Positions 18,355 through 37,631 of a DNA stretch of 64,000 nucleotides are shown piece after piece. This stretch comes from Desertivirga xinjiangensis. GTDB taxonomy: Bacteria > Bacteroidota > Bacteroidia > Sphingobacteriales > Sphingobacteriaceae. The position numbers and the translations under genes were made by a program. The stretch is taken from positions 186,001 through 250,000 of the forward strand of contig NZ_JAFMZP010000002.1 in the NCBI RefSeq assembly GCF_024436435.1, given 5' to 3'. Under the pieces are notes generated by a model. It had not been told where the DNA came from and did not search any database. It saw only the letters and a list, made by a program, of their open reading frames with translations. Numbering within the stretch: position 1 is the first letter of the stretch; each line of letters begins with the position of its first letter.

Positions 18355-18376
18355 AGCCCCGAAAGGGGCTTTGTTG
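18355..18376 (+). terminator. Hairpin between the DUF3606 gene and ligD
   Basis: A perfect 6 bp stem (AGCCCC / GGGGCT) around a GAAA tetraloop is followed by TTGTTGT. It ends about four bases before the ligD ATG, so it could act as a terminator, an attenuator or a structure that covers the ligD ribosome site. Confidence 0.7.
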
Positions 18377-18379
18377 TCT

Positions 18380-21283: not shown

Positions 21284-21313
21284 TTTGTTATAAAGAGATT
21301 ATTATTACATTTG
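21284..21313 (+). promoter_or_regulatory. Bacteroidota-type promoter of the first PL6 lyase
   Basis: TTTG at 21284-21287 and TACATTTG at 21306-21313 are separated by 18 bp, matching the -33/-7 consensus TTTG ... TAnnTTTG. Transcription would start near 21320. The last three bases of the -7 box are also the start of an operator. Confidence 0.75.
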
Positions 21314-21322
21314 GTATACCAA
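21311..21322. promoter_or_regulatory. GntR-type operator O1 at the PL6 promoter
   Basis: TTGGTATACCAA is a perfect 12 bp palindrome and is identical to the core of the E. coli UxuR/ExuR consensus. It overlaps the -7 box and the expected start of transcription, a position suited to repression. Confidence 0.78.
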
Positions 21323-21325
21323 TAA

Positions 21326-21337
21326 TTGGTAAACCAA
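21326..21337. promoter_or_regulatory. GntR-type operator O2 at the PL6 promoter
   Basis: TTGGTAAACCAA lies 15 bp downstream of O1, centre to centre, ten bases before the ATG of the PL6 gene. Two sites about 1.5 helical turns apart recur at the regulator's own promoter. Confidence 0.75.
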
Positions 21338-21347
21338 ATAGTCCATT

Positions 21348-24300
21348 ATGAAACCTTTTTTATTCGCATTTTTTCTAACATGTATGCTGTATGCGTCACC
21401 GCGCGCGCAGACGGCGGTTCAAACCTCTTTTGAATCTCCTCAGTTCAGTTCCGGAAGTATCCATGGTCAAAATAGCTGGATACTGAGTAGCGGCAACGCA
21501 ACTGTTACTAGTGCAAAGGCTAAAGCCGGATCCCTGTCTCTTCGATTTCAAGCCGACAACAGTGCCTTGCTTATCAATCACAAGGCGTTTGAAGGCAATG
21601 TTACTGGTTTACGAGGTGAAATATACGCCGACTTCTGGGTAAACCCAGTCTCGTTTATTACCAAGGGGATTGCTATAGCCGGTTACGATTTATTCGGGGG
21701 CAGCTCCAAACGAATCTTTGTAATTGAATATACCACCGACAATAAAATTAAAGCTTATAATGGTGGTTCAGGTGTGAATGTCGGAACCTGGGTGGCAGAT
21801 ACCTGGACACGGATCTCCGTTAAAGCGGATTTTGCTACCGAGAAGTATAGAGTTGCCATCAATGGTGTATTGTCGGAAACGGAGTTTAGCTTTAGAGAAA
21901 CCTATACCCCAACAGCGAGTGGTACCAGGGAAGCCGGCATCAAGGAATATCATTCCCTCCGGATAAATCAGACAACAGACACACAAATTGCCAGCTCGGA
22001 CGTATACATCGATGACCTTTACGTAGGAACCAACCCTATTCCGGATGTTTCTTTCGGAGCCTCATCAACAAGCCGGACTATCTCCCTTACCCAGCCGGAA
22101 TTCGGAACAATTACCTTAAGTCCTTCAAAAACTGTCTATAACCTCAATGATGAGGTTACTGCTACCTTAACTGTTCCGCAAGGTTATCTGAATGCGGGTT
22201 GGACAGGCAGCCTTTCGGGAACAGAGCTTACTAAGACTTTCACAGTAACATCCAACATGACAATAGGAGCAGAGGTTACAATTAATACAGCCAATCCGCC
22301 GGCACAGTTTAGCATCATGTTGGTGCAACCTGCTAATGGAAGTATCAGTTTATCACCGGCGTCGTCGGATGGAAAATATTATAAAGAAACAAAGGTAACT
22401 GCCACGGTTTCTTATGAACCTTGTTATCAGTTTAATGGCTGGACCGGAGATCTTTCAGGTACTCAGATTTCAAAGGTCTTTACGGTAACTTCAGGCCTTA
22501 CCATAGGTGCAGACATCACAGAGAACAATACTCCTTCGGTTGTCAGAACGGTATCATCTGTGACTGATTTCAAAAATGCTCTGAATGCGATGAATCCGGG
22601 AGATATTATAGAGGTTGCCGATGGATCTTACAATATGGGCAGTGTTAAGATAAACCGGTCTGGCTGTGAACTGCGCCCAATTTTAATCGTGGCGAAAAAT
22701 CAGGGCCAGGCTGTTATTAATGGCAATACCACATGGGAACTCGATGGCTTAAAGTATGTTACTATAAAAGGATTTTCATTTAAAAACGCTTCTGTTGGGA
22801 CGGGAATAAAAGTTCTGAACTGCAGCAGGGTACGCATAACCGGAAATAGTTTTAATCTGACAGAAACCGGTTCATGCAACTGGGTTTATATCGGTGATAC
22901 TTTTGGCAGTACTTTACCCCTCAGATCTGGCCACAACAAGGTTGATCATAATGTTTTTGATGGTAAAACCCATCCCGGAAAGTTCATTTTACTCGATGGC
23001 AACATCAACCAGCAATCCCAATATGATACTATAAGTTATAACTTGTTCAAGAATAACGGACCTCGTGCAGCAAACGAAAAAGAGAGTATCAGAATAGGGG
23101 TGAGCACCTTGTCGAAAAGCAGCGGTTTTACTGTGGTGGAATATAATTTATTCCAGGACTGTGACGGTGATCCGGAAATCGTATCGGTTAAATCCTGCGA
23201 TAATATTATTCGTTTTAATACTTTCCAGCGCTGCCTGGGTACCCTGTGTTTGCGTCAGGGCTTCAGAAGCGTAGCTGAAGGAAATCATTTCTTTGGTGAA
23301 GGCAAGACGGCGGTGTTTACCGTATCGAACTCCGACGGAAGTACATCAAGCAGCACTATCGGCTGCGGAGGCGTGCGTGTTTACGGGCTGGATCACAAGG
23401 TGATCAATAACTATTTTCATGGCTTAACTGGATCTAAGTGGGATGCTGCCTTGACTATCACTAATGGAGATGTAACAAATTCGTCTACCAGCACGGCTGA
23501 TCATTACCTGCCTGAAAACCTGATTGCAGCGTTCAATACCTTCGTAAATAACGAATCTAACATTGAAATCGGTTTCGATAATAACGGGAAATATCCAAGA
23601 TATCCAATCAACTGTCTTATTGCAAATAATATTGTAGTGGAAAATAAGACGCCTATAATTAAGTCATTTAGCACTCAATCCCTGGCGGGAGTTACGTTCT
23701 CTAATAATATTATGTATCCGACCGGTAGTTCATCTCTGGGTATAAATGCCACGGCTGCACAGATCAGAACGGTAGATCCTCAGTTAATTCAGCCTGCATG
23801 TACCAAGCCTGGGGATTGTAATGAGGATATCGCCTACCACGTATTGCGCCTGTCAGCAACAAGCCCGGCGATTGATGCGGCCACAGGCAGTTTTTCCGAA
23901 GCGTCTGTAGATTATGAAGGCCAGGCCCGTACCGGCACCAAAGACATAGGAGCAGACGAGTTTTCTTCAGTTCCATTGGTCGTAAGTGCATTAAGTGAAA
24001 AATATGTCGGTCCCGCCGCCGTCCCTTTCGACTACAGTTATCAGGGAGTGCTACCGGTGAGTTTATTAAGCTTCACCGCTTCGGGAAAGCTTAATGATGT
24101 GAATCTTGCATGGAATGTGGCCCACCAGGTGAACCTGAAACAATATGATGTAGAGTGGAGTACTGATGGTAAGACGTTCATCAGAGTTGCTACTATACCG
24201 GCTCAGGATCAATTACAACACTACCGTACTTCTCATTCAAATGCGGTCACCGGCAATAATTATTACCGCTTAAAAATGCTGGATCTCGACGGGAAATATG

Positions 24301-24575
24301 AATATTCACCTTTGCGGGTGGTTAAAATATCTTCTACCGTTAAGGTCTATCCAAATCCGGCATCAAGGATTCTGACTATTGATATGAGCACTGCAAATGT
24401 GCCAAATGCTCAGGTCCGGCTTGTTAATATGTCTGGAAATACAGTGCTTCAAGCAGAAACTTCATCAGTATCCCATAGCTTAGATGTTCAAGTGATCCCT
24501 TCAGGAGTATATCAGCTTGTACTTCAACTGGCTGATGGCACATCGTCATCGAACTCGGTAGTAATAGTGCACTAG
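21348..24575 (+). CDS. Multidomain PL6 alginate lyase-like enzyme with T9SS tail
   Basis: A 1075 aa secreted lyase. Order: signal peptide (1-20); a LamG-like or carbohydrate-binding beta domain (about 22-235); two InlB-like bacterial repeats (about 245-395, each with a GWTG[SD]LSGT block); a PL6 beta-helix (about 398-870); and a Por-secretion C-terminal tail (about 1000-1075, starting VYPNPAS). The PL6 pair is Lys615 (EIVSVKS) and Arg636 (LRQG), 21 residues apart as in chondroitinase B (K250/R271). One calcium-binding Glu position is Asp608 (GDPEI), and the usual LRHG is LRQG. It probably cleaves alginate outside the cell. Controlled by O1/O2. Confidence 0.9.
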   Translation: MKPFLFAFFLTCMLYASPRAQTAVQTSFESPQFSSGSIHGQNSWILSSGNATVTSAKAKAGSLSLRFQADNSALLINHKAFEGNVTGLRGEIYADFWVNPVSFITKGIAIAGYDLFGGSSKRIFVIEYTTDNKIKAYNGGSGVNVGTWVADTWTRISVKADFATEKYRVAINGVLSETEFSFRETYTPTASGTREAGIKEYHSLRINQTTDTQIASSDVYIDDLYVGTNPIPDVSFGASSTSRTISLTQPEFGTITLSPSKTVYNLNDEVTATLTVPQGYLNAGWTGSLSGTELTKTFTVTSNMTIGAEVTINTANPPAQFSIMLVQPANGSISLSPASSDGKYYKETKVTATVSYEPCYQFNGWTGDLSGTQISKVFTVTSGLTIGADITENNTPSVVRTVSSVTDFKNALNAMNPGDIIEVADGSYNMGSVKINRSGCELRPILIVAKNQGQAVINGNTTWELDGLKYVTIKGFSFKNASVGTGIKVLNCSRVRITGNSFNLTETGSCNWVYIGDTFGSTLPLRSGHNKVDHNVFDGKTHPGKFILLDGNINQQSQYDTISYNLFKNNGPRAANEKESIRIGVSTLSKSSGFTVVEYNLFQDCDGDPEIVSVKSCDNIIRFNTFQRCLGTLCLRQGFRSVAEGNHFFGEGKTAVFTVSNSDGSTSSSTIGCGGVRVYGLDHKVINNYFHGLTGSKWDAALTITNGDVTNSSTSTADHYLPENLIAAFNTFVNNESNIEIGFDNNGKYPRYPINCLIANNIVVENKTPIIKSFSTQSLAGVTFSNNIMYPTGSSSLGINATAAQIRTVDPQLIQPACTKPGDCNEDIAYHVLRLSATSPAIDAATGSFSEASVDYEGQARTGTKDIGADEFSSVPLVVSALSEKYVGPAAVPFDYSYQGVLPVSLLSFTASGKLNDVNLAWNVAHQVNLKQYDVEWSTDGKTFIRVATIPAQDQLQHYRTSHSNAVTGNNYYRLKMLDLDGKYEYSPLRVVKISSTVKVYPNPASRILTIDMSTANVPNAQVRLVNMSGNTVLQAETSSVSHSLDVQVIPSGVYQLVLQLADGTSSSNSVVIVH

Positions 24576-24683
24576 TTTTTTGTTTCATACAATAAGTTTC
24601 ACTAAAAAGTTTCAATATGAGTTGGTCTGCCGATATCGGTTAATCAAATTTCGAAAAGACATCAGCCGACCATATTAATTATC

Positions 24684-24700
24684 TATGTTTGGTCAACCAA
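24684..24700 (+). promoter_or_regulatory. -7 box with GntR-type operator upstream of a lyase remnant
   Basis: TATGTTTG (24684-24691) matches TAnnTTTG, and TTGGTCAACCAA (24689-24700) is an operator in exactly the same register to the -7 box as at the other two promoters. No TTTG -33 box is found 18-19 bp upstream. It would serve the remnant and, 187 bp further on, the next PL6 gene. Confidence 0.65.
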
Positions 24701-24706
24701 AAAAAA

Positions 24707-24847
24707 TTGAACAATGTAGACCTGTGGCGAGAAGGAACCACGGCCTGTCGCCCGAAATGGGGGATGTACCGGAGCCAACTCGAACCTTCTTATCTCCGGG
24801 ATGAAGAGATACGTTTCAACGATTTTTTAATTGAAGAACAGAAGTAA
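24707..24847 (+). pseudogene. 3' remnant of a polysaccharide lyase gene
   Basis: An open frame of 46 codons without a start ends in TAA at 24845-24847. Read from 24716 it gives VDLWREGTTACRPKWGMYRS, then a segment ending LRDEEIRFNDFLIEEQK. This has the look of the C-terminus of PF14099-type lyases (heparin lyase I / PL13, PL20-like: xPKWGIYRS ... LRDExVRFxDFxIxE). An operator and -7 box lie directly upstream, so the promoter seems to have been kept while the gene body was deleted. Family identity is from memory of the motif. Confidence 0.6.
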
Positions 24848-24886
24848 AAAATTGCAATCACAGCTTCAACGATTAGCCCCTGAATA

Positions 24887-26266
24887 ATGATCTTTAAAAA
24901 AATTATACATAGTCAATTATTAGCATTTATAATAGTGCTTAACGCATATGCTGGCGCACGCGTGTCGCGTGTGCCAAGCGAATTATTTTTAACCTCCCTT
25001 ACTCGTGGACCTGAATCTGTTGATCAGAAACCTGCTAAATACCTGGTTAAAAATGCATCAGAATTAAATGCTTTAAGTTTGTTGCCCGGTGATACCGTCA
25101 TCATGCTCAACGGAAACTGGCAAAGCCAGCAGATAAATTTTAAGGGGAAGGGTACACACCAAAAACCTATACTGCTTTTAGCCGAAACCAGGGGGGAAGT
25201 GCTCCTAACCGGTAATTCTAATCTGAAAATAGACGGGACCTGGCTGATGGTAGACGGATTAGCTTTTAAGGACGGCTTTTCTTTAAAAGAAGATGTCGTG
25301 ATCTTTTCAAAAAACTCTTCGAATTGCCGTTTGACCAACACGAGTATCGAAAATTACAATCCCCAAAATAAGCAAACAGATTATAAGTGGATCTCTTTAT
25401 ACGGCAGAAATAATCGTTTAGATCATTGTTCTTTAACCGGAAAAAGCCATTCGGGAACAACCTTGGTGGTTTGGCTGGATGATAAGCCCAACTATCACGA
25501 AATAGATCACAATTATTTCGGACCGCGCCCTCCTTTGGGAGCTAACGGTGGCGAAACCATCAGGATAGGTACCAGTACATGGTCGATGCATGATTCTTAT
25601 ACGAAAGTCGCTTACAATATATTTGATAAGTGCGATGGAGAAATGGAAATCATATCCATAAAATCAGGTCATAATCTCATCAGCAATAATTTCTTTTATG
25701 AATGCGAAGGAACAATAACGTTCAGGCATGGGAACAACAACGAAGTTAGTTACAACTATCTTTTAGGTAACGGTAAGAAAAATGCCGGCGGTATTCGTAT
25801 CATCGGTGAAAACCATAAGGTACATCATAACTACTTGCAAGACCTGCCAGGAAGGAATCTGAGGGCGGCTATCTCGGTAATGAACAGTTTGGAGAAACCT
25901 CAACTTCATGAATATTTCCAGGTAAAGAACGCAGATGTACAATCAAATATTATCGTAAACTGCCGGGAGGCCTTTGTTCTGGGTGCTGGTAAAGATGCAC
26001 TTCTAAAGGTTGCACCTGATAATTTGAGCGTTAAGAATAATTATATTATAGATCCGGGTTCGCTGCTTGTCAAAACAGATAATCCCACAAACCTTGTTCT
26101 GGAAAATAACCAGGTAAGCGGCGCTTCGTTACAAACAGGGTTTGTTAAAATGTCTGAGGATCTGCACAAAGCAGAAGGGATCTGGCAGCTTAAAGGAGAA
26201 ACAAAAACGCCTTTCTGGATAGACACGTCGGTAGGACCTTCCTGGAAGGAGAAGTCCCAATTTTAA
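24887..26266 (+). CDS. PL6 alginate lyase (chondroitinase-B-like)
   Basis: A 459 aa single-domain PL6 lyase with a short signal peptide (residues 1-22, ending NAYAGA). The beta-helix holds [16 protein letters not shown] and [11 protein letters not shown], and the Ca2+/catalytic block E252-x-E254 IISIK259. Arg280 follows in FRHG, with the expected 21-residue spacing from Lys259. Unlike the 1075 aa enzyme it has no binding modules or T9SS tail, so it is probably periplasmic or surface-held by another route. It degrades poly- or oligo-uronate by beta-elimination; alginate is inferred from the locus. It sits between the lyase remnant and the GntR gene. Confidence 0.92.
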
Positions 26267-26278
26267 TTTCAAATATTT

Positions 26279-26309
26279 TTTGCAATTGACAAAGAAATCT
26301 CCATATTTG
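26279..26309 (+). promoter_or_regulatory. Promoter of the GntR regulator gene
   Basis: TTTG at 26279-26282 and CATATTTG at 26302-26309 (one mismatch to TAnnTTTG) are 19 bp apart. The box merges into the first operator in the same register as at the PL6 promoter, which implies autoregulation. Confidence 0.68.
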
Positions 26310-26318
26310 GTAAACCAA
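26307..26318. promoter_or_regulatory. GntR-type operator at its own gene, site 1
   Basis: TTGGTAAACCAA, the same sequence as O2 of the PL6 promoter, overlaps the -7 box and the expected transcription start. Confidence 0.75.
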
Positions 26319-26322
26319 TTAT

Positions 26323-26334
26323 TTGGTCGACCAA
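26323..26334. promoter_or_regulatory. GntR-type operator at its own gene, site 2
   Basis: TTGGTCGACCAA is a perfect palindrome 16 bp from site 1 and ends two bases before the ATG at 26337. A bound dimer here could also hinder translation-start access by blocking transcription. Confidence 0.73.
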
Positions 26335-26336
26335 TC

Positions 26337-27074
26337 ATGAAAGAACTAATAGATAATATTCAAGCTATACAGGTTGAAAGTCCTGTAGACAAAATTATTC
26401 GTCAGCTCAAGCAACTCATTGTTTCAGGTCAATTAAAACCGGGCGACAGATTACCCGCAGAAAGGGCTTTATCAGAAAAATTCGGGGTAGGGAGAAGCTA
26501 TGTACGTGAGGCCATCCTTAAACTTGAATTTTATGGACTGTTAAAAACCAATCCTCAAAGTGGTACGTACGTTTCGGGACTTGGTATTAAAGTGATCGAC
26601 AGCTTGATAACTGACATTATCAAATTTAATAAAGACGACTTCAGTGCTATGGTTGAAGCCCGTTATTACCTGGAACTGGATTCTGTGCGACTCGCCGCAG
26701 AGCGGAAGTCTTCTGAGGATATAGAGGCCATTGAGCAGGCAATGAATGATTATGAAGCCAAGGTAAATAATGGAGAAAGCGCCGTGGAAGAGGATATGCT
26801 TTTCCATGTGATGATTGCCAGGGCCACAAAAAATTCAGTTATAGAATCTATGATCCTTAACCTTATTCCTGACCTGATCAAACACATTACGGAGAACAAG
26901 ATCTGTGGAGATAACAGGGGAAAGGCGGCGATCGAAGAACACAGAGCCATTTTTGAAGCTCTGAAAGCGGGAGATATCGATGCCGCCGAGAATGCCATGG
27001 CAGGTCACCTGGATGAAATTTTGCAAATAAGCAGAGCCGATTTTGCCGCGAAACTGCTCATAAATAATAGCTAA
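26337..27074 (+). CDS. GntR-family transcriptional regulator (FadR/UxuR-type)
   Basis: A 245 aa repressor-type regulator. The winged HTH is near residues 14-80 (LKPGDRLPAERALSEKFGVGRSYVREAI, with GTYV in the wing). The all-helical FCD ligand domain follows, with a metal-binding pattern (D...H, FHVMIA near 152-157, and H192/H214-like positions in KHITEN and EEHRAIF). ATG 26337 is chosen: it follows two operators, and an upstream TTG frame would run through them. UxuR/ExuR-like regulators respond to hexuronates, so the ligand here is probably an alginate breakdown product (inference). It lies inside the lyase locus. Confidence 0.93.
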   Translation: MKELIDNIQAIQVESPVDKIIRQLKQLIVSGQLKPGDRLPAERALSEKFGVGRSYVREAILKLEFYGLLKTNPQSGTYVSGLGIKVIDSLITDIIKFNKDDFSAMVEARYYLELDSVRLAAERKSSEDIEAIEQAMNDYEAKVNNGESAVEEDMLFHVMIARATKNSVIESMILNLIPDLIKHITENKICGDNRGKAAIEEHRAIFEALKAGDIDAAENAMAGHLDEILQISRADFAAKLLINNS

Positions 27075-27129: not shown

Positions 27130-29265
27130 ATGAACTACTTAAAAAAAGTGGTAATTGTTGGGTTTTGTCTTTACTTTCCATCAAGCCTTATCGCTCAGAA
27201 GCATCCCAATATTATGCTCACCAGCCAGAATATCGATGCGGTGAGAAAAGGCTTGCAGGAATATCCTTTGCTTCAAAATTCCTATAAAGAGGTTCTTAAG
27301 CAGGCAGATAAGGCGCTTGGAGCTCCGATAAGTGTTCCGGTTCCGAAAGACGGAGGAGGAGGTGTTACGCATGAACAGCATAAGAAAAATTATCAGAACA
27401 TCCTGGCATGCGGCGTTGCTTATCAATTAAGCCAGGACAAGAAATATGCACAGTATGTCAGGGAGATCTTATTAAATTATGCGGGGCAATATGAAAGATG
27501 GCCAAACCATCCTAAAAGTAATCCGAGTAATCCTCCGGGCAGGATCTTTTGGCAAAACTTGAATGATTGCGTATGGCAGGTGCATGTAATTCAGGGATAC
27601 GACCTGGTGTTCGATGCAATCCCCGCAAAGGATCGTAAGACAATTGAAGAACATCTTTTTATACCGGTTCTAAAATATATTACTGTTGATTCCTACGAAA
27701 CTTTTAACAGGATCCATAACCATGGAACCTGGGCTGTAGCTGCGGTTGGACTCACTGGGTATGTAATAAATAAACCTGATTATGTGGAGATGGCTTTAAA
27801 AGGATCTGATAAAAAAGGTAAAGCTGGTTTTTTAGCACAGATCAATGAGTTGTTTTCTCCTGATGGCTATTATACGGAAGGGTTCTATTATCAGCGTTAT
27901 GCTTTATTGCCGTTCATCCTCTTTGCTAAAGCAATTAACCAGTTTCAGCCGGAGTTGAAGATCTATGATTACCGGAACGGTTTGTTGAAGAAGGCAGTCA
28001 ACACTGCACTCCAGGGAACCTACAGCACCGGTCATTTCTTCCCAATCAACGATGCAATAAAGAGCAAAACTTTTGAAAGCGACGAAATAGTTTATGCGGT
28101 AGATATAGCTTACGCAGAAATGGGAGGGGATAAAGGATTATTGTCGATAGCCCAAAAACAAAAGAAGGTAGTGGTTTCTGATGCCGGGTTGAAAGTTGCC
28201 CGGGATATTGCTGAAAAGAAATCGCAGGACTTCAGTTACCAGCCTCAATGGATAGCTGATGGAAAGCACGGCGATGAAGGAGGTCTTGGGATCCTACGTT
28301 ATGGAACTTTAAAAGAGCAGCAGTGTGTATTGTTTAAAGCCGCTTCACAAGGTCTCGGTCATGGTCATTTTGACCGTCTGAATATTCTCTATTACGATAA
28401 CGGAACCGAGGTTTTCCCTGATTATGGCGCATCACGATTTATCAATATCGAAACTAAGGGAGGAGGAGGCTATCTCAAAGAGAACAATACCTGGGCAAAA
28501 CAAACTGTTGCCCATAATACACTCGTTGTCGATCAGACTTCCGCCTTTAAAGCGAATCTGAAAGCTGCGGAGAAGCACCATCCGGAATTGATAGAGTTTA
28601 AAACCACAGATAACATTCAGGTGGTAAGTGCCAGGGAAAATAATGCTTACCCTGGAGTGCAGATGTTGAGGACAACAGCTTTAATCAAAATTAAAGAGCT
28701 CAAGAAGCCTTTATTAGTAGATATATATAAAGCAGAATCAGCAACTGAACATCAATATGACCTGCCATTCTGGTATAAAGGCCATATGGTTGACGCATCA
28801 TTTAAAATCGCAGCAGTTAAGGACAATCTTAAGGCCTTAGGCGACAATTACGGTTATCAGCATATTTGGCTTAACAGTAAGAACGAAATCCCTGAAGGAA
28901 ATGGATATATTACGGTTTTAAACTCAAATAGCTTTTACACCACCACTTTTGCATCAGCTGCGCCGATTGAGGTTAAGCTTGTTTCATTGGGAGCTAATGA
29001 TCCGGAGATGAACCTGGTTGAAAGTAAAGCTTTTATTTTGTCGCAGCCAAAAGCGGCTAATCAAACTTTTATTTCTATCACAGAAAATCATGGCGGCACC
29101 GACCCGATTGCTGAAGTGACCAACGGAGCAAATAGTTCACTGAGCTCTATTAATATTCAGAATTCTGATGCAAAGCAAACAACATTCAGTTTTAAAGTTA
29201 AAAATAAGACCTACATCCTTACGCTTAATTACTACGACAAAAATAATTTCATACAGATAAAATAG
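27130..29265 (+). CDS. PL17 oligo-alginate lyase
   Basis: A 711 aa exolytic lyase that releases unsaturated monouronate from alginate oligomers, likely in the periplasm (signal peptide 1-22, ending SSLIAQ). It has an alpha/alpha toroid N-terminal half and a heparinase II/III-like beta-sheet half from about 380. Catalytic candidates are Asn197-His198 (RIHNHGTW) and Tyr254 (TEGFYYQRY). Both lie four positions before their Alg17c counterparts N201/H202 and Y258, so spacing is conserved. GHGHFDRLNILYYDNG near 412-427 carries the conserved His. It is followed closely by kdgF. Confidence in family is high. Confidence 0.94.
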   Translation: MNYLKKVVIVGFCLYFPSSLIAQKHPNIMLTSQNIDAVRKGLQEYPLLQNSYKEVLKQADKALGAPISVPVPKDGGGGVTHEQHKKNYQNILACGVAYQLSQDKKYAQYVREILLNYAGQYERWPNHPKSNPSNPPGRIFWQNLNDCVWQVHVIQGYDLVFDAIPAKDRKTIEEHLFIPVLKYITVDSYETFNRIHNHGTWAVAAVGLTGYVINKPDYVEMALKGSDKKGKAGFLAQINELFSPDGYYTEGFYYQRYALLPFILFAKAINQFQPELKIYDYRNGLLKKAVNTALQGTYSTGHFFPINDAIKSKTFESDEIVYAVDIAYAEMGGDKGLLSIAQKQKKVVVSDAGLKVARDIAEKKSQDFSYQPQWIADGKHGDEGGLGILRYGTLKEQQCVLFKAASQGLGHGHFDRLNILYYDNGTEVFPDYGASRFINIETKGGGGYLKENNTWAKQTVAHNTLVVDQTSAFKANLKAAEKHHPELIEFKTTDNIQVVSARENNAYPGVQMLRTTALIKIKELKKPLLVDIYKAESATEHQYDLPFWYKGHMVDASFKIAAVKDNLKALGDNYGYQHIWLNSKNEIPEGNGYITVLNSNSFYTTTFASAAPIEVKLVSLGANDPEMNLVESKAFILSQPKAANQTFISITENHGGTDPIAEVTNGANSSLSSINIQNSDAKQTTFSFKVKNKTYILTLNYYDKNNFIQIK

Positions 29266-29271
29266 ACATAC

Positions 29272-29607
29272 ATGTTACAGGGCACATTATTTCAAATAGA
29301 TGCAGAAACTCCATGGCAGGATTTAGGCAATGGCATACAAAGGCAGATCTACGGTTATGACGACAAGATCATGCTGGTAAAAGCGAAGTTCGATACAGGT
29401 GCGATAGGTACCCTGCATGAGCATTACCACTCTCAGGTTACTTACGTGGAAAGCGGCGTTTTCGAGATGACCATCGGCGAACAAAAGAAAATAATCAGAA
29501 AAGGTGATGGTTATTATATTCCTCCCCATGAGATCCATGGTTGCGTATGTCTGGAACCAGGCATGCTGATCGATATATTCAGCCCTCACAGGGAAGATTT
29601 TTTATAA
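29272..29607 (+). CDS. kdgF: KdgF-type cupin, unsaturated uronate linearisation
   Basis: A 111 aa single-cupin protein that converts 4,5-unsaturated uronate monomers to the open-chain keto sugar DEH. Metal ligands are His49, His51, Gln55 and His89 (TLHEHYHSQ and PPHEIHG), in line with the KdgF pattern. It begins six bases after the PL17 stop, which yields exactly the substrate it uses. Length is normal. No signal peptide is seen, so it should act in the cytoplasm. Confidence 0.9.
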   Translation: MLQGTLFQIDAETPWQDLGNGIQRQIYGYDDKIMLVKAKFDTGAIGTLHEHYHSQVTYVESGVFEMTIGEQKKIIRKGDGYYIPPHEIHGCVCLEPGMLIDIFSPHREDFL

Positions 29608-29636
29608 GCTAACACACATCTAAAAACCAATTTAAT

Positions 29637-30524
29637 ATGAGAAGGGGAATAAGTTTAATCTGCCTGTTATGGATGGGATTTGTAACAGTAGCGCAGGAGA
29701 CGCCGGAAGTTAGAAAAGTGGTTTATCCGCAAGGATACACTTCTCAGATCAATGTGATCTATACCCAGGTAAAGGGATGGGACGGTAAAATGGATCTTTA
29801 TCTTCCTCCTAAAGAGAAAGGGCCATCTCCAGTGGTAATCAATATACATGGCGGAGGCTGGAATAAAGGAAGCAAGGACACGCAAAGTGGCTTCAGCACT
29901 TTTTTCAAGAAGGGTTATGCTGTAGCTAACATTGGCTATCGTTTATCGCAGGTTGCCACAGCGCCTGCTGCGGTTGAAGATACCCGTTGTGCTTTAATTT
30001 ACCTGATCAAGAATGCAAAAGAGTTAAATATTGATGTCAACAAGATTGTAATCATGGGCGGTTCGGCAGGAGGGCACCTTGCTTTAATGGGCGGCCTGCT
30101 CGGTAACAATCATACCTTCGATACCAACTGCAAAGGGGTTAACAATGTTAAAGTAGCTGCCATAATTGATAAATACGGAATTACCGACGTGGGCGATTGG
30201 GCTTATGGCAAAAATATTACCAGTAAATCTGCCGTAATGTGGCTGGGTGATAAGGCTTCAGATGTTAATTTCAGAAACTCTGTTTCTCCAATCACTTATG
30301 TGACAAAGAACAGCCCCCCGGTATTTATAGTACATGGCGATGCTGACCCGGTTGTACCTTATCAGCAATCACAGGAACTTCATAAAAAATTGGTAGAGGC
30401 TGGTGTTAAAACTGAATTCATCACCGTAGAAGGCGGTCTTCATGGCAAATTCACGAAAGAAAAAAATTCAGAGCTGAACGTAAAGATCATGGAATTCCTA
30501 AAGAGTGTAGGCGTTCATAACTAG
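29637..30524 (+). CDS. Secreted alpha/beta hydrolase, carbohydrate-esterase-like
   Basis: A 295 aa BD-FAE-like hydrolase with a signal peptide (1-20, ending VTVAQ). The oxyanion-hole motif is HGGGWNKGS (about 71-79), the nucleophile elbow is GGSAGGHLAL (Ser near 143), and the acid and base are likely in HGDADPVVP (about 236-244) and GGLHGKF (His near 271). In a uronate locus it probably removes acetyl esters, for example from acetylated alginate, but substrate is not visible from the sequence. It sits between kdgF and the MFS gene. Confidence 0.87.
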   Translation: MRRGISLICLLWMGFVTVAQETPEVRKVVYPQGYTSQINVIYTQVKGWDGKMDLYLPPKEKGPSPVVINIHGGGWNKGSKDTQSGFSTFFKKGYAVANIGYRLSQVATAPAAVEDTRCALIYLIKNAKELNIDVNKIVIMGGSAGGHLALMGGLLGNNHTFDTNCKGVNNVKVAAIIDKYGITDVGDWAYGKNITSKSAVMWLGDKASDVNFRNSVSPITYVTKNSPPVFIVHGDADPVVPYQQSQELHKKLVEAGVKTEFITVEGGLHGKFTKEKNSELNVKIMEFLKSVGVHN

Positions 30525-30531
30525 GAAGACC

Positions 30532-31806
30532 ATGAAAATACAAGGTTTACGTTGGTATATCATTTTCCTGATCGGCCTGGCAACAGTTATCAATTATATT
30601 GATAGGAGTGCCATCAATATTATGTGGCCATATATCTATCATGAGTTTGGGATAAGTGATGTCGATAATAAAAGTACACTGGCTCTGATTACTTCATTTT
30701 TCATGGTAGCCTATGCTATAGGTCAAACATCAACAGGTAAGTTAATGGATGCCATTGGCACACGCATGGGTATGGCAATCTCGATTGCCGGATGGAGCAT
30801 TTCGATTGCATTACATGCGATGGCCAAGTCTATTTTTTCTTTCAATGTTTTCAGGTTCCTGCTTGGATTTTTTGAGGCGGGCAACTGGCCGGGGGCGACA
30901 AAGAGTAACGCTGAGTGGTTTCCGGCGAAAGAAAGAGCCATTGCTCAAGGAATATTTGGTGCAGGAGCCTCCCTTGGATCAGTGATCTCTGCGCCGATCA
31001 TTGCTATATTGTTTGTGACGTTTGGCTGGAAGGCTACTTTCTTCCTGATCGGTGGTCTGGGCTTGATCTGGTTGATTCCCTGGTTGTTTATTAATAAGGC
31101 GAATCCCGATAAACATCCCTGGATCACGGAAGAAGAGAAACAGCACATATTGTCTTCACCCGCACAAGCACAGGATGCCGCTTTAAATGCACCAGCATTG
31201 TCATGGAAGGAACTTTTATCCTTCAGAAGTACCTGGGGTATTATTCTCGGCCGCTTTTTTATAGATCCGGTGTGGTGGTTATTCGTAACCTGGCTTCCAA
31301 CGTTCTTAAAGGAGCAATTCCTTTTTGATATCAAACAGATCGGTGCCTTTACATGGTTTCCATACCTCTGCGCCGCTATCGGAAGTTTACTGGGTGGTTT
31401 TTATTCCTCCAAACTGATCAAAAAAGGAGCAGATCCGGAAGTTGCACGAAAAAAGGCAATTACAGTAGGTTCCGTTTTAATGATGCTTGGACTGGTAGCC
31501 ATCCTATTCTACCTGGATTCTTTAAAGGATCGTCCTTACCTGGCGATGGGCTTAATCGGCCTGACCCTGTTTGGCTTCCAGTTTCTTATCGGAAACCTTC
31601 AAACTCTCCCTAGTGATTATTTCAATGGGAAAAATGTGGGCACCGTTGCAGGTATGGGCGGCACCGCTGCAGTTATAGGTACTTTATTTACTACCTGGGC
31701 AGTGCCTGTTATTACACAAACGAGTTATGTGTCCTTCTTTTTACTGGGAGCGGCTTTAGTTCCGCTCGCCTGGTTATCAGTTAAATTCATGAGTTCTAAA
31801 AATTAA
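30532..31806 (+). CDS. MFS hexuronate-type transporter (ACS family, ExuT-like)
   Basis: A 424 aa inner-membrane symporter with about 12 membrane helices. NYIDRSAINI near residues 21-30 and GFFEAGNWPGATKSNAEWFP near 107-126 are typical of anion:cation symporters for hexuronates and hexonates. It starts seven bases after the esterase gene. In context it imports unsaturated monouronate or DEH released by the PL17 enzyme. Specificity is inferred from neighbours. Confidence 0.92.
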   Translation: MKIQGLRWYIIFLIGLATVINYIDRSAINIMWPYIYHEFGISDVDNKSTLALITSFFMVAYAIGQTSTGKLMDAIGTRMGMAISIAGWSISIALHAMAKSIFSFNVFRFLLGFFEAGNWPGATKSNAEWFPAKERAIAQGIFGAGASLGSVISAPIIAILFVTFGWKATFFLIGGLGLIWLIPWLFINKANPDKHPWITEEEKQHILSSPAQAQDAALNAPALSWKELLSFRSTWGIILGRFFIDPVWWLFVTWLPTFLKEQFLFDIKQIGAFTWFPYLCAAIGSLLGGFYSSKLIKKGADPEVARKKAITVGSVLMMLGLVAILFYLDSLKDRPYLAMGLIGLTLFGFQFLIGNLQTLPSDYFNGKNVGTVAGMGGTAAVIGTLFTTWAVPVITQTSYVSFFLLGAALVPLAWLSVKFMSSKN

Positions 31807-31821
31807 ATTAAATAAATCAAG

Positions 31822-32574
31822 ATGCGTTTAAAAAACAAAGTAGCAGTTGTAACAGGTGGAGCAAGAGACATAGGCAGAGCTATATCCTGCCAGTTAGCCC
31901 GTGAAGGAGCAAAAGTAGTGATCAATTATTTTGATGATGAAGCTAAGGCTCAGGAAACAGCTGACCTGATCAAAGCAGAAGGCGGCCAATCCATTATTGT
32001 TTACGGAGATATGACTAAAGCTGACGATGCCAATAACCTCGTTGCTAAAGCTAGAGAGGCTTTCGGAGAAGAAATTCATATTCTTGCTAACGTTGCCGGC
32101 GGGCTGGTTGGGAGGAAGAAGCTGGTAGAAATGGAGGAATCTTTCTTTGACTTCCTGGTTGATCTGAACTTCAAATCAGTTTTCCTGGTTTCTAAGGCAG
32201 TTGTGCCTTTCATGCCTGAAGGTAGTTCCATCATCAACTTTTCCTCTTTAGCAGCTCGTGATGGCGGTGGTCCGGGAGCAAGTGTTTATGCAGCGGCGAA
32301 GGGTGCGGTAATGACCTACACTCGTTCACTGGCAAAAGAATTGGGTCCGCAGGGCATTCGTGTAAACGCTTTGGCTCCGGGAGTAATCTCTACAACCTTC
32401 CATGATGTGCACAGTACACCTCAGGTTCGTCAGAACATTTGCAATGCGACAGCGCTGCGCAGAGAGGGAAGTGCCCAGGAAGTTGCAGACCTGGTGGCTT
32501 ACCTTGCTTCCAGCGACTCAAGCTTCATCAGCGGGAATAACATTGATATTAACGGAGGTCTTGCCTTCTCTTAA
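31822..32574 (+). CDS. SDR oxidoreductase, probable DEH reductase
   Basis: A 250 aa classical SDR. The cofactor loop is VTGGARDIGRAIS (about 10-22), the catalytic Ser lies in NFSSLAA, the Tyr/Lys pair is YAAAK near 155-159, and the C-terminus ends with NNIDINGGLAFS. Alginate loci encode an SDR that reduces DEH to 2-keto-3-deoxygluconate, which fits the position directly after the importer gene. The kinase and aldolase for KDG are not in the window. NADH or NADPH preference is not deduced. Confidence 0.9.
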   Translation: MRLKNKVAVVTGGARDIGRAISCQLAREGAKVVINYFDDEAKAQETADLIKAEGGQSIIVYGDMTKADDANNLVAKAREAFGEEIHILANVAGGLVGRKKLVEMEESFFDFLVDLNFKSVFLVSKAVVPFMPEGSSIINFSSLAARDGGGPGASVYAAAKGAVMTYTRSLAKELGPQGIRVNALAPGVISTTFHDVHSTPQVRQNICNATALRREGSAQEVADLVAYLASSDSSFISGNNIDINGGLAFS

Positions 32575-32591
32575 AAAAATAAATAAATCCC

Positions 32592-32625
32592 TCCGGATTG
32601 TCTGGGTATAAACAGTCAATCCGGA
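32592..32625 (+). terminator. Hairpin between the SDR gene and susC
   Basis: Arms TCCGGATTGTCTG and CAGTCAATCCGGA form a 13 bp stem with one mismatch and an eight-base loop, but only a weak T stretch follows. It could end the upstream operon or act as a processing point. A second small hairpin (CCTGAC / GTCAGG) is at 32731-32748, close to susC. Confidence 0.55.
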
Positions 32626-32781: not shown

Positions 32782-35700
32782 ATGATTAAACCAGGATTTT
32801 CTTCCACCTGCAAAACTGGGGTCGCTCTGCTTATGCTGGGGCTTGTTTTGCAATGGAACGCAGAAGCATTCGGCCTGGAAAAGACAGCAGCCGGAAGCAA
32901 ATTAGCCCAGGATATCACCGTAACCGGGAAGGTAACAGACCTAAAAGGTGATGCATTGCCTGGAGTGAGTGTGATAGTAAAAGGTACTAAAAATGGTACC
33001 ACCACCAATGCCTCGGGTCAATACACACTCAAGCAGGTTCCCGATAATGCTACCCTTGTTTTGAGTTTTCTAGGATTTAAAACCAGAGAGGTTGCAGTTA
33101 ACCGTCGTAAAGCCATCAATGTTATTCTTGAAGACGATACCAAAGCCCTGGATGAGGTAGTAGTAGTAGGCTATGGTACTGTTAAAAAATCACACCTAAC
33201 AGGGTCTATAACCAAACTGGAGAACCAGAACCTTGACGAGATTCCGGCTTCCCGTTTAGACAATGCTCTGGTGGGTAAACTAGCAGGTGTAAACATCCAG
33301 AATGTAAATCCTGAAGCAGGCGCAACACCACAGATCAGGGTAAGGGGATTAAATTCTATAAGTGCAGACTCTGAACCTCTTGTAGTGGTGGACGGATATC
33401 CTGTACCCGACGGGCTGGCATTTGTTAACTCTCAGGATGTAGCTTCCATTGAAGTGTTGAAAGATGCCGCATCTGCTGCGATATACGGATCCAGGGGTGC
33501 CAATGGAGTGATTCTGATCACCACTAAAAGCGGCAGGTCGGACAAGCCTAGGTATTCCATAAAAGCCTATACAGGAATAAAAGAGGCCTACAAGCTTAAT
33601 CCGCATATGACATTTACAGATTACGCACAAATGTTATATAATGAGGCTGCTTTACGGGCTAATGATCCTACCGTGCCAGCTAACAGGCGAAATCTGATAA
33701 GCGCTGGAGAGCAGGCATCCTATATTATTGAAAGCCAGATCAGTGGCTCGCCAACCGACTGGCAGCAGGAAGGATTGAGGGATGCCAGTATTAATAACGT
33801 ACAGTTCAATATCTCGGGAGGTAAAAAAGACCTTCGGTATTACATCTCAAGCAGCATCCAAAGAGATCAGGGGATAATGAAGGAAAGTCAGAATGACAAG
33901 CTAAACTTCAATGCAAAAATAGACGGGTCCTTAAGTAAAAAAGTTACTTTCGGATTGAACCTAAATCCAAGTTATAACAAGATAAACAGACCACCTGTTA
34001 ATTACACTGACTACTACCGCTACGCCTCGTTCATTCCTGTGTTTCATAACGAATTTACTGCCGCATTCGTAAATCAGAATCCTCAATGGGCGAATATTAA
34101 AGCCGGTGACTATGCACAACCACGGCACTTCAGTGATTTGAGTTATGCAGGCTTAATGCCCGATGGAAGTTATTTCACAGGAAGTAGCGTAGATCCATGG
34201 TCATCCACTTCAAATAACCCTGTTACCATTATGGATCGAGAGGACCGCAATACGCATACATACAGGATGCTTGGTGGTGGTAATATTTCAGTTAATTTTC
34301 TGCCTAACCTGGTTTTTAAAACTTCGATCGGCGGCTATTTCACATATCAGGAGAATAACAGCTTTATTCAAACAGACTCGCGTAATGACGGTCAGGTAAA
34401 CGAGGCAACTTTTGGAACCCGGAAATTAGTTGACTATCTATGGGAGAACACTTTGAATTATTCCTTTAAGAAGAAAGACCACAACTTCACTGGATTATTA
34501 GGGTATACTGCTCAAAAGACGACAACTTTCTTATCCAACATAAATGGGTATAACTTTCCCAATGAAGACTTTCAAACTATAAATCAAGCCGCACAGATTA
34601 ACCAATCTCTAACAAATACGACCCAAGAACCCATTGGGCTGATTTCTTATCTTGGTAGGATCACTTATGACTACAAAGGGAAATATTTGTTTTCAACAAG
34701 TTTGCGATCTGATGGAAGCACTTATTTTAATAAAGGAAGGCAATACGGTTGGTTTCCTTCTGTCTCTGCTGGATGGCGCTTAAAAGAGGAGTCTTTTTTA
34801 CAACAGGTGAATTGGCTTAGCGATTTAAAACTCAGGGCAAGCTATGGCGCGACTGGTAATAACCGTATCCAGAGCTTCGCTTATTATAACCTGTTATATC
34901 CGGGTAATTATTCATTTGGCGATGGTACTGGTGCTGTAAGTCCAGGCCTGGCTCCAAACAGTAATACACTTTCTAATCGAAGTATCACCTGGGAAAGGAC
35001 TTATGAATATAACATTGGTTTCGATGCAGGTTTTAACAAAAGTAAGTTTACAGTTGCGCTTGATTACTATAATAAAGTTACCGACCGCCTATTGTTTAAG
35101 GAAACCGCTATGTCGTTTAGTGGTTCTTACGACCACTGGAATAATGTCGGACGAGTCCGGAATCAGGGTATAGAACTTGATTTTAGCTCATTAAATTTTT
35201 CGAAAAGAAATTTTGAATGGAAATCGTCTTTTAATCTTTCAGCCAATAGAAACAAATTACTGGATCTCGGTGGAGAGCAGTATCAATTAAATTATGGTGA
35301 ACGTGAAGAAGTATATGCTGCTTATTTAGGAGGACCGGCGATTCAGTATTACGGATATAAAACCGACGGTGTATGGCTTTCTCAAGCTCAAATCGATGAA
35401 GCCAAGACAAACGGTCAAACTTCAACGTTATCCAGATACTATCAGGCAGGAGGATTGAAGTTTGTAGATGTGAACGGTGACAATGTTATAAGTATTGAGG
35501 ATCGCACGATTCTAGGCACACCATTTCCAGATTTTACCTGGGGCCTCACCAATGCATTTAAGTACAAAAGTTTTGACTTAAATATATTATTGCAGGGAGT
35601 TCAGGGCGCCAAAGTGATAAATGGTGATGCCAATTACAATGAAAATAAACGATATAATCCAAAGTTTACTGAGAATCGTTGGTTAAGTGCAGCTAATCCA

Positions 35701-36030
35701 GGGGATGGAAAAACTCCTTATTATACCAATGGTGAAAATTGGATGCTGACTGATTATGTAATTGAGGATGCGTCTTATGCTGCTATCAGAAATGTGATTA
35801 TCGGATATACTTTGCCAAAGAAATTTGCCGCGAAAGCAAACTTAAAAGGATTAAGGTTTTATGGATCGATCGATAACCTTCTCTATATAATGGGCAAAAC
35901 TTACCGTGGAATTAATCCAGAAGCGCTTACTACTACGAATCAATATAGCTCGCCCCTGATAAGTGGTTACCAGCGGGGTGCATTTCCAATTGGCCGTACA
36001 TTCACCTTTGGTGTTGATTTGAATTTATAA
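32782..36030 (+). CDS. SusC-family TonB-dependent transporter
   Basis: A 1082 aa outer-membrane importer. It has a signal peptide (about 1-31), a carboxypeptidase-D-regulatory-like domain (about 47-120, DLKGDALPGVSV), a TonB-box-like DEVVVVGYGTVKKSHLTGS near 127-145, a plug with NPEAGATPQIRVRG and AAIYGSRGANGVILITTK, and a long C-terminal barrel. It pairs with the SusD gene 20 bp downstream. Together they should import oligosaccharides released at the surface, here most likely alginate oligomers. No STN domain is seen, so direct anti-sigma signalling is unlikely. Confidence 0.96.
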   Translation: MIKPGFSSTCKTGVALLMLGLVLQWNAEAFGLEKTAAGSKLAQDITVTGKVTDLKGDALPGVSVIVKGTKNGTTTNASGQYTLKQVPDNATLVLSFLGFKTREVAVNRRKAINVILEDDTKALDEVVVVGYGTVKKSHLTGSITKLENQNLDEIPASRLDNALVGKLAGVNIQNVNPEAGATPQIRVRGLNSISADSEPLVVVDGYPVPDGLAFVNSQDVASIEVLKDAASAAIYGSRGANGVILITTKSGRSDKPRYSIKAYTGIKEAYKLNPHMTFTDYAQMLYNEAALRANDPTVPANRRNLISAGEQASYIIESQISGSPTDWQQEGLRDASINNVQFNISGGKKDLRYYISSSIQRDQGIMKESQNDKLNFNAKIDGSLSKKVTFGLNLNPSYNKINRPPVNYTDYYRYASFIPVFHNEFTAAFVNQNPQWANIKAGDYAQPRHFSDLSYAGLMPDGSYFTGSSVDPWSSTSNNPVTIMDREDRNTHTYRMLGGGNISVNFLPNLVFKTSIGGYFTYQENNSFIQTDSRNDGQVNEATFGTRKLVDYLWENTLNYSFKKKDHNFTGLLGYTAQKTTTFLSNINGYNFPNEDFQTINQAAQINQSLTNTTQEPIGLISYLGRITYDYKGKYLFSTSLRSDGSTYFNKGRQYGWFPSVSAGWRLKEESFLQQVNWLSDLKLRASYGATGNNRIQSFAYYNLLYPGNYSFGDGTGAVSPGLAPNSNTLSNRSITWERTYEYNIGFDAGFNKSKFTVALDYYNKVTDRLLFKETAMSFSGSYDHWNNVGRVRNQGIELDFSSLNFSKRNFEWKSSFNLSANRNKLLDLGGEQYQLNYGEREEVYAAYLGGPAIQYYGYKTDGVWLSQAQIDEAKTNGQTSTLSRYYQAGGLKFVDVNGDNVISIEDRTILGTPFPDFTWGLTNAFKYKSFDLNILLQGVQGAKVINGDANYNENKRYNPKFTENRWLSAANPGDGKTPYYTNGENWMLTDYVIEDASYAAIRNVIIGYTLPKKFAAKANLKGLRFYGSIDNLLYIMGKTYRGINPEALTTTNQYSSPLISGYQRGAFPIGRTFTFGVDLNL

Positions 36031-36050
36031 ACTACTTAAAGACGATTCAA

Positions 36051-37631
36051 ATGAAATCATTTAAATATATAATATCAGGAGTTATACTGAGCTTTAGCCT
36101 TTCGGCATGTCAGAAAATAATAGATGTGGAGCCTGTTTCTAATGAAAGGGTTGAAGATTATTATCACAATTATAACGAAGTAGATGTTGCACTCACAGGA
36201 TGTTATAAAGGTTTGCAGGAGCCTCTCAGAAGTGAATGGCGTGTTACAGATCTGCGAAGCGATAACTTAAAATTGAATGTGATCAATAGTTCATCTGCGG
36301 AGAATGTTTTCCTGCTGCATCTTGACACCTACGAACTAAATACGAATCATCCCGATGTCTATGATTACTGGCTGGCTGAATATAAAAATATTCGAAGTAT
36401 CAATTATGTACTCAAAAGTCTTGGGGTGAAATACAGCAACGGACAGGTTGAGTTTGGAGAAAGACTGGCGCAAGTTAAAGATTCTGAGCGTGACCAGTTA
36501 GCCGCAGAAGCGTTATTTCTGCGTGCCTATCATTACTTTAACCTGGTACGCCTGTACGGAGGCGTGTTTTTAATTACAGAACCTCTTGAGGCCGAGAACG
36601 CCAGACAAATTAACCGGTCGTCTGTTCAGGATTGCTGGAATTTCATCGTAGCGGATCTAAAAGCCGCAGAGACGAAGCTGAAAAGAGTGCCCTACGGATC
36701 AATGAATAAAGACGATATGGGACGTGCGACTATTTGGGCCGTAAAAGGTTTGCTGGCTAAAGTTTACTTAACTCTTGACCGTAAATCAGAGGCACTTCTG
36801 CTGCTTAATGATGTTATTGATAATAGTGGCTATGGACTGGAATCTACTTACAGTAGTGTATTTGCCATCAGTAATGAAATGAATAAAGAAATATTATTCG
36901 CCGTTCGTTTTAAAGCGGGCGGACTGGGGATGGGAAACTGGATGGCAAATTATTTTGCTCCTCTTGCCAGTGGCAATGCGGTGGTGAACGGAGATGGGAG
37001 GGGACACAGTTACCCATCAACAAATTTAAGTCAGGCCTATAAGACTCCAGGTGCCGGAAACAAAGATTTGAGAAAGGATGTAAATATTGGTACCTACGTT
37101 AGTCAGCTTTATACAAAAAAATACCTATCTCAGGTATTGATTGAGGATGATGCTGAGAATGATTTTCCGGTGCTGCGTTTTGCAGATATCCTTTTAATGA
37201 AAGCAGAAGCAATTGGATTTGACGGGGCTGGCGGTACTTCTGTCTCCATAATCAATCAGATCAGGCAAAGGGCCGGTGCCACAACGTTCAGTACTGGTGA
37301 TTTTAATGCAGCATTTTATGTATATCCTACAGATCCGTCTGATGTAAATGCTATTACCGACGATAAGTTTGAAGAAGCATTGTTCAATGAAAGAAGGTTA
37401 GAGCTCGCATTCGAAAACCAGCGCTTTTTTGACCTTTTACGCACGGGCAAAGCTGTAGATTACATCAGGAATTACTTTGCTTCAGAGTTTGATTCTCATT
37501 ATAGAAAATATACTCTTACACTAGCTCAATTGCAGGGCTTGGTAACACAGGATCGGTTGTTATTACCAATCCCCCAGCGGGAGATTGATACCAATACTCA
37601 GATTAAAATTGCTCAAAACAGTGGTTATTAG
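36051..37631 (+). CDS. SusD-family glycan-binding lipoprotein
   Basis: A 526 aa surface lipoprotein with a lipobox at FSLSAC (Cys20). The TPR-rich core is typical, for example AEALFLRAYHYFNLVRLYGGV near 157-177 and ERRLELAFENQRFFDLLRTGK in the C-terminal third. It forms the lid of the adjacent SusC transporter and helps capture oligosaccharide. It begins 20 bp after susC. Confidence 0.96.
   Translation: MKSFKYIISGVILSFSLSACQKIIDVEPVSNERVEDYYHNYNEVDVALTGCYKGLQEPLRSEWRVTDLRSDNLKLNVINSSSAENVFLLHLDTYELNTNHPDVYDYWLAEYKNIRSINYVLKSLGVKYSNGQVEFGERLAQVKDSERDQLAAEALFLRAYHYFNLVRLYGGVFLITEPLEAENARQINRSSVQDCWNFIVADLKAAETKLKRVPYGSMNKDDMGRATIWAVKGLLAKVYLTLDRKSEALLLLNDVIDNSGYGLESTYSSVFAISNEMNKEILFAVRFKAGGLGMGNWMANYFAPLASGNAVVNGDGRGHSYPSTNLSQAYKTPGAGNKDLRKDVNIGTYVSQLYTKKYLSQVLIEDDAENDFPVLRFADILLMKAEAIGFDGAGGTSVSIINQIRQRAGATTFSTGDFNAAFYVYPTDPSDVNAITDDKFEEALFNERRLELAFENQRFFDLLRTGKAVDYIRNYFASEFDSHYRKYTLTLAQLQGLVTQDRLLLPIPQREIDTNTQIKIAQNSGY

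Follow-up and report, generated by a model that had tools for sequence, protein, structure and literature searches.

The nearest functional match to the regulator described here is AusR of the marine bacterium Zobellia galactanivorans, described as a GntR-family repressor of alginate use that acts at single, double and triple operators and is kept off DNA by alginate breakdown products (passages of PMC7874173 and PMC8286568). In excerpts of PMC4494728, TKGT/ACMA boxes are general in the FadR subfamily of GntR proteins, and a 2-nt gap between GT and AC is given for UxuR and also for GntR, HpxS, HypR, MdcY and PrpR, that of ExuR being 3 nt. Escherichia coli NanR binds zinc, and several of its dimers, neighbors being about half a turn apart, occupy adjoining sites on GGTATA direct repeats (excerpts of PMC8012715). 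Primary-sigma promoters of Bacteroidota carry TTTG and TAnnTTTG boxes 17-20 bp apart; in Flavobacterium johnsoniae, the latter box is TAHHTTTG, with its G at −5 and the start site 4-5 nt after the box (excerpts of PMC6847099).

Here we describe a 64,000-nt window of Desertivirga xinjiangensis (Sphingobacteriaceae; NZ_JAFMZP010000002.1, 186,001-250,000; coordinates are window positions). It contains an alginate utilization locus with PL6 lyases, a GntR/FCD regulator, PL17, cupin, MFS, SDR and SusC/D genes, and in it TTGGTNNACCAA palindromes stand in a fixed register to the −7 box of the promoters. This register is genuine and holds generally, in the relatives as well as in the window. The regulator is very probably an AusR-type alginate repressor that would cover the −7 box and the start site. 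Like AusR, it is a GntR-family protein encoded inside an alginate utilization locus, with single, double or triple operators at its targets; unlike AusR, the system lies in Sphingobacteriaceae, its tandem operators follow each other at 15-16 bp (as opposed to 13 bp in the f4 set, nine genomes of another family, Flavobacteriaceae by inference), and PL6 and PL17 lyases would be under its control.

Operators in register with the −7 box

A pattern scan of the window returned the five exact TTGGTNNACCAA copies at three places that a first-pass annotation had listed, and a second site follows the first by 15 or 16 bp at two promoters, as it had also stated (Table 1). No one-mismatch site was found in the window, and matches with two mismatches or fewer were at chance level (40, with a chance mean of 36.9), so the exact cluster is the signal; five exact sites within approximately 5 kb are far from chance. 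The genome (5.5 Mb, 99.98% complete) holds 10 exact sites, and the five outside the window are all located inside open reading frames (ORFs). Arithmetic for ten fixed bases in 5.5 Mb predicts approximately five sites by chance, which accounts for these scattered copies. One-mismatch sites showed no surplus genome-wide (151 per strand vs. 243 for the reversed-pattern control). Given the exact cluster and the near-chance number of copies elsewhere, all within ORFs, chance or a genome-wide repeat was rejected as the origin of the motif.

The window has two double operators and one single operator. Each first operator had been claimed to begin at the second T of a TAnnTTTG box; the register holds at all three promoters, but the exact box is present at two of them (TACATTTG and TATGTTTG), the third reading CATATTTG. 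TAnnTTTG and a TTTG at 17-20 bp, both exact, occur together at one of the three, and no TTTG was found 17-20 bp upstream of the promoter 2 box.

The relatives were sampled as the best 80 of 187 loci encoding relatives of the regulator, and 73 of these 80 contained exact operators. For each array, the upstream-most operator was used, and further copies were admitted at two mismatches or fewer. This gave 109 promoters, window included, with 8 of 117 arrays left out: four without a gene within 400 bp (L066:11811, L085, L098 and L101:810), two in L089 beside runs of N, and two single intragenic sites (L054:4523 and L056:6893). Genes were taken from simple ATG-ORF calling, gntR was recognized by a protein length of 228-258 aa, and the lineages of the relatives were set by hand from record titles. 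L046 was also oriented by hand, its gntR start being masked in the ORF calls.

TAnnT was found at the predicted place in 78 of the 109 promoters, a count left unchanged although the upstream-most rule scores L054, L056 and L069 as misses where a downstream operator is in register or close to it. TA alone occupied its predicted position in 83, compared with an average of 18 and a highest count of 34 over 2000 shuffles. TTTG occurred 17-20 bp upstream in 70 promoters, the spacers of 17, 18, 19 and 20 bp being represented by 8, 18, 36 and 8 promoters, respectively, and any other tested spacing by at most 5. Both TAnnT and TTTG at 17-20 bp, the layout of a Bacteroidota primary-sigma promoter, were present in 57; the difference from the promoters described is that the −7 TTTG would here double as a repressor half-site.

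The register was found in several lineages. Within Sphingobacteriaceae, TAnnT was present in 29 of 35 gntR promoters and 25 of 28 structural-gene promoters; the corresponding figures were 0 of 5 and 5 of 6 in Chitinophagaceae and 13 of 22 and 1 of 3 in Saprospiria and others, and Cytophagales-like gntR promoters had it in 0 of 4. Several misses were one base off with the register kept (CTAATATTGG in L060 and L061), and others were one-base shifts (TAAATTGG in L062-L064). The window has TAnnT at two of its three promoters (promoter 3, with two of the three bases, was scored as a miss) and L037 at all three. The latter, recorded as Flavobacteriaceae bacterium PS02338, is a Pedobacter-type locus with a regulator 73% identical to that of the window, and is possibly mislabelled.

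Most promoters had two operators (12 single, 85 double and 12 triple). The most frequent step between neighboring operators was 15 bp (71 times), followed by 16 bp (26 times), and 13 bp occurred twice. Sixteen loci had pairs at gntR as well as at structural genes. In 12 of them (window, L029-L035, L037, L039, L049 and L057), the step was 16 bp at gntR and always 15 bp at structural genes; the other four (L050, L058, L075 and L101) did not follow this rule. In the f4 genomes, scanned at one mismatch or fewer, the step was typically 13 bp, and TAnnT preceded the first operator at 8 of 8 SusC promoters; one further array, 595 nt before the gntR gene of L132, also kept the register. Steps of 27 or 28 bp were found in four distinct arrays (L023; L024, L025, L054 and L056, which are alike; L069; and L109). 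In these the downstream operator carries the −7 register (three exact, and one, that of L069, with a single mismatch, CAnnT), and the upstream operator has its TTTG at the −33 place, with a spacer of 19 or 20 bp. Because the register is kept across 13-, 15-16- and 27-28-bp arrays, one operator is tied to the −7 box, and the position of the other varies. Apparent steps of 30-32 bp conceal a degenerate middle copy. In three Saprospiria-type loci (L097, L105 and L107), operator pairs were 41-42 bp apart, with an ACC half between them and no clear full copy.

The sites also co-occur with the regulator, whose presence in family genomes was scored at E 1e-40 or better. Of the 151 family genomes, 16 encode the regulator and 135 lack it; 13 of the former and none of the latter contained exact tandem operators (reversed-pattern control, 0). 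The three regulator genomes without an exact tandem had 27-bp spacing (G018 and G083) or a degenerate copy (G075). A similar pattern, searched for in 395 genomes across the phylum, matched in three, all among the 13 bearing the regulator. All nine tandem sites remote from the regulator (>10 kb away or on other contigs) were examined. They preceded PL6-type genes (L137 by Pfam; L138 and L135 by sequence likeness, the L135 gene being split into two ORFs and its Pfam scan covering only the B-repeat part), a PL7-type gene between two diverging genes (L136), SusC-type receptors (L139-L142), and a TIM-barrel isomerase followed by PL6- and PL7-type genes (L143). TAnnT was kept at eight of the nine, the exception being L135. 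Two copies of the regulator gene stand on a single contig at a distance of approximately 7 kb (L058, Arcticibacter svalbardensis; G020, contig 72); their products share 79% and 69% identity with the window protein.

Competing readings of the register and the regulator

We consider it about evenly balanced whether selection maintains −7 box and operator as a single composite element across Sphingobacteriaceae, Chitinophagaceae, Saprospiria and the presumed Flavobacteriaceae, with one operator locked and its partner free to lie downstream (by 13, 15 or 16 bp) or upstream (by 27-28 bp); in the upstream case, both promoter boxes would be built into operators. Since sigma and repressor would then read the same TTTG, promoter strength and repression could not evolve apart. 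A very unlikely alternative is that TAnnT reflects an outer preference of the repressor, unrelated to sigma, within an extended palindrome, TATATTTGGTnnACCAAATATA. Some single sites are indeed long palindromes, for example, those ahead of the lyase gene in L041 and L048, and the mirrored 3′ flank of the last operator carries TAnnT in 20 of 109 promoters and at least two of its three bases in 44. The two sides are nevertheless clearly asymmetric: the first-operator side reaches 78 and 97, respectively, with discordant TAnnT pairs at 59 to 1. Moreover, the separate TTTG peak at 17-20 bp is beyond the reach of a 12-16-bp operator, and second operators at 13-18-bp steps show TAnnT at 0 of 100 steps, the flank there being largely the first operator. 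On the asymmetry and the TTTG peak, TAnnT as a mere operator flank was rejected. Less easily dismissed, but still doubtful, is an inherited rather than selected register, in which an ancestral promoter-operator cassette was copied before each target gene. In its favor, many promoters are alike among Pedobacter species, and closely related genomes share one tandem spacing within their group; yet the register is kept among promoters with <65% upstream identity (TA at 48 of 71 vs. 11 of 71), with −33 spacers of 17, 18, 19 and 20 bp, after a 13-bp operator step, and, through the downstream operator, in the 27-28-bp arrays. Copying followed by selection is compatible with these data.

Several observations weigh against the AusR-type repression over the −7 box that we favor. 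Exact TAnnT is missing in 31 of the 109 promoters, including all gntR promoters of Chitinophagaceae and of the Cytophagales-like group; 12 fail even two of the three bases, a level that the mirrored flank reaches in 44. The gntR promoter box of the window has one mismatch, its register unchanged. Seven of the 80 relatives' loci have no exact site, and f4 gntR promoters are mostly off register (of seven with a site no more than 120 bp from the gene, one is in register). In the 207-nt gap before SusC/D, no operator was found at two mismatches or fewer, so that read-through from promoter 3 is predicted; a strong hairpin lies between SDR and SusC (32592-32625; perfect 9-bp outer stem, minimum free energy of −20.2 kcal/mol, z of −4.0).

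The identity of the regulator was weighed in the same way. Both Pfam domains were well above their cut-offs (GntR winged helix-turn-helix, 71.5 bits vs. 27; FCD, 93.4 bits vs. 24.3), which places the protein in the FadR/FCD subfamily; its own genome encodes only two FCD proteins. All 90 aligned proteins have D153, H157 and H202, and 89 have H224, the remaining one showing a gap. We take this Asp and the three His to be the FCD metal site, and their conservation fits a metal-dependent pocket for a carboxylated ligand. The nine f4 relatives are 39-45% identical and have similar neighbor genes. Among 25 of 27 NCBIfam models, none was reached at its cut-off: the closest was NanR (129.6 bits vs. 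260), with LldR and PdhR also above UxuR (77.4 vs. 442) and ExuR (69.5 vs. 396). NanR differs in its sites, direct repeats according to the excerpts cited above, whereas those found here are palindromes at 15-16 bp.

The operator core had been equated with the E. coli UxuR/ExuR consensus. The likeness is that all are GntR/FCD proteins and that the core has the 2-nt gap given for UxuR in the excerpts; such a gap is not diagnostic, being common to other FadR-subfamily groups, and it differs from that of ExuR. 2-Keto-3-deoxygluconate (KDG) is common to the alginate and hexuronate pathways, which favors a true UxuR/ExuR-type hexuronate regulator of glucuronate or galacturonate genes. We regard such a regulator as highly improbable, because both model scores are far below the cut-offs, on which UxuR orthology was rejected, and because both the genes next to the regulator and those at remote sites code for alginate lyases and SusC-type receptors; the type of promoter and the set of targets differ as well. 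The link to UxuR/ExuR is thus only family-level. What survives of the idea of hexuronate-type control joined to a Bacteroidota promoter is a GntR gene that has operators of its own, a fixed register of operators to a Bacteroidota −7 box, and control that is uronate-related in a broad sense, alginate being a polyuronate and the targets being alginate lyases and uptake genes.

The proposed switch and the genes around it

In the AusR-type switch that we favor, a regulator dimer would bind TTGGTNNACCAA sites fused to the core promoter, the −7 TTTG serving also as the outer operator half. Operator 1 would lie at about −7 to +5, with its second half from +1 (F. johnsoniae numbering), and so a bound dimer would keep sigma off some of the box contacts and would itself lie over the start site. 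Operator 2, 15-16 bp or approximately 1.5 turns downstream, may take a second dimer on the nearly opposite face and strengthen repression. If the composite-element reading is right, the partner position may set tightness, for example, 16 bp at the regulator promoter and 15 bp at targets in the group of Pedobacter relatives. Alginate breakdown would bring a carboxylated product, probably 4-deoxy-L-erythro-5-hexoseulose uronate (DEH) or KDG, into the metal-type FCD pocket, whereupon the regulator would leave DNA and the lyase and uptake genes would be switched on, together with its own gene.

Table 1 Promoters, operators and genes of the alginate locus, and operator pairs with 27- or 28-bp steps in relatives
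Feature	Coordinates	Strand	Basis or remarks
Promoter 1: −33 TTTG 21284-21287, 18-bp spacer, −7 box TACATTTG 21306-21313	21284..21313	+	Sequence reading; equal layout in relatives
Tandem operators 1a 21311-21322, 1b 21326-21337	21311..21337	+	Exact TTGGTNNACCAA; 15-bp step; precede PL6a gene
PL6a: PL6-type lyase (Chondroitinase B model), B-repeat domain, C-terminal sorting domain	21348..24575	+	PF14592 2e-47, PF18998 1.1e-7, PF18962 9.2e-11
Promoter 2: −7 box TATGTTTG 24684-24691, overlapped by single operator	24684..24700	+	Sequence reading and pattern scan
Single operator of promoter 2	24689-24700	+	Exact TTGGTNNACCAA; overlaps −7 box
46-codon stub, C-terminal end of ~290-aa lyase	24707..24847	+	tblastn relatives, E ≤ 1e-8
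PL6b: second PL6-type lyase	24887..26266	+	PF14592 3.9e-93
Promoter 3: −33 TTTG 26279-26282, 19-bp spacer, −7-like box CATATTTG 26302-26309	26279..26309	+	Sequence reading
Tandem operators 3a 26307-26318, 3b 26323-26334	26307..26334	+	Exact TTGGTNNACCAA; 16-bp step; end 2 nt before regulator ATG
GntR/FCD regulator, AusR-like, 245 aa, predicted repressor and autoregulator	26337..27074	+	PF00392 4.6e-20, PF07729 1.9e-26
PL17-type oligoalginate lyase	27130..29265	+	NF042990 719.5 bits (below cut-off 1400); PF07940, PF05426
Cupin (KdgF-like by context), esterase, MFS transporter, SDR reductase; predicted one operon	29272..32574	+	Domain scans; relatives around regulator elsewhere
SusC and SusD	32782..37631	+	Domain scans
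Operator pairs with 27-28-bp steps	L054:9952-9990, L056:9951-9989, L023:1429-1467, L069:3392-3431, L109:2216-2254

A PL6 or PL17 relative was present in 69 of 89 regulator loci. Relatives of the 46-codon stub were found in 14 of the 89 loci with 50-70% identity (for example, L028, L041, L048 and L075). The stub alone had no Pfam match, and the intact relative in L028 scored 27.0 bits with PF14099, just under the cut-off of 29.9. Intact relatives begin 11-26 nt after an operator promoter (L028, L029-L035, L037, L039, L041, L048 and L049), which suggests that promoter 2 once served a lyase gene. On this sequence comparison, the greater part of that gene has most likely been lost and promoter 2 left behind; transcription from it may today continue across the stub into PL6b. 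The loss may explain the single operator of promoter 2, its missing −33 box and its leader of approximately 190 nt.

The hairpin upstream of SusC has no U run and may act as a terminator, as an attenuator or in processing. Two genes upstream of PL6a, the window encodes a LigD-type ATP-dependent DNA ligase with a primase-polymerase domain (18371-20479).

Meaning for Bacteroidota

The AusR switch with multiple operators is already published, as the passages cited at the outset show, and the register is not claimed as new. Among the literature matches listed, none dealt with an operator register of this kind in Bacteroidota; no literature on GntR operator control of Pedobacter alginate lyases was found, and the operator motif was not found in PMC9369180.

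To our knowledge, local repressors of polysaccharide loci in Bacteroidota are little described. The tandem pattern makes this regulon callable by sequence with few false positives, as the co-occurrence with the regulator indicates, and the locus extends the AusR-type switch to Sphingobacteriaceae. The promoter-operator geometry is a candidate for a tight inducible promoter in Bacteroidota.

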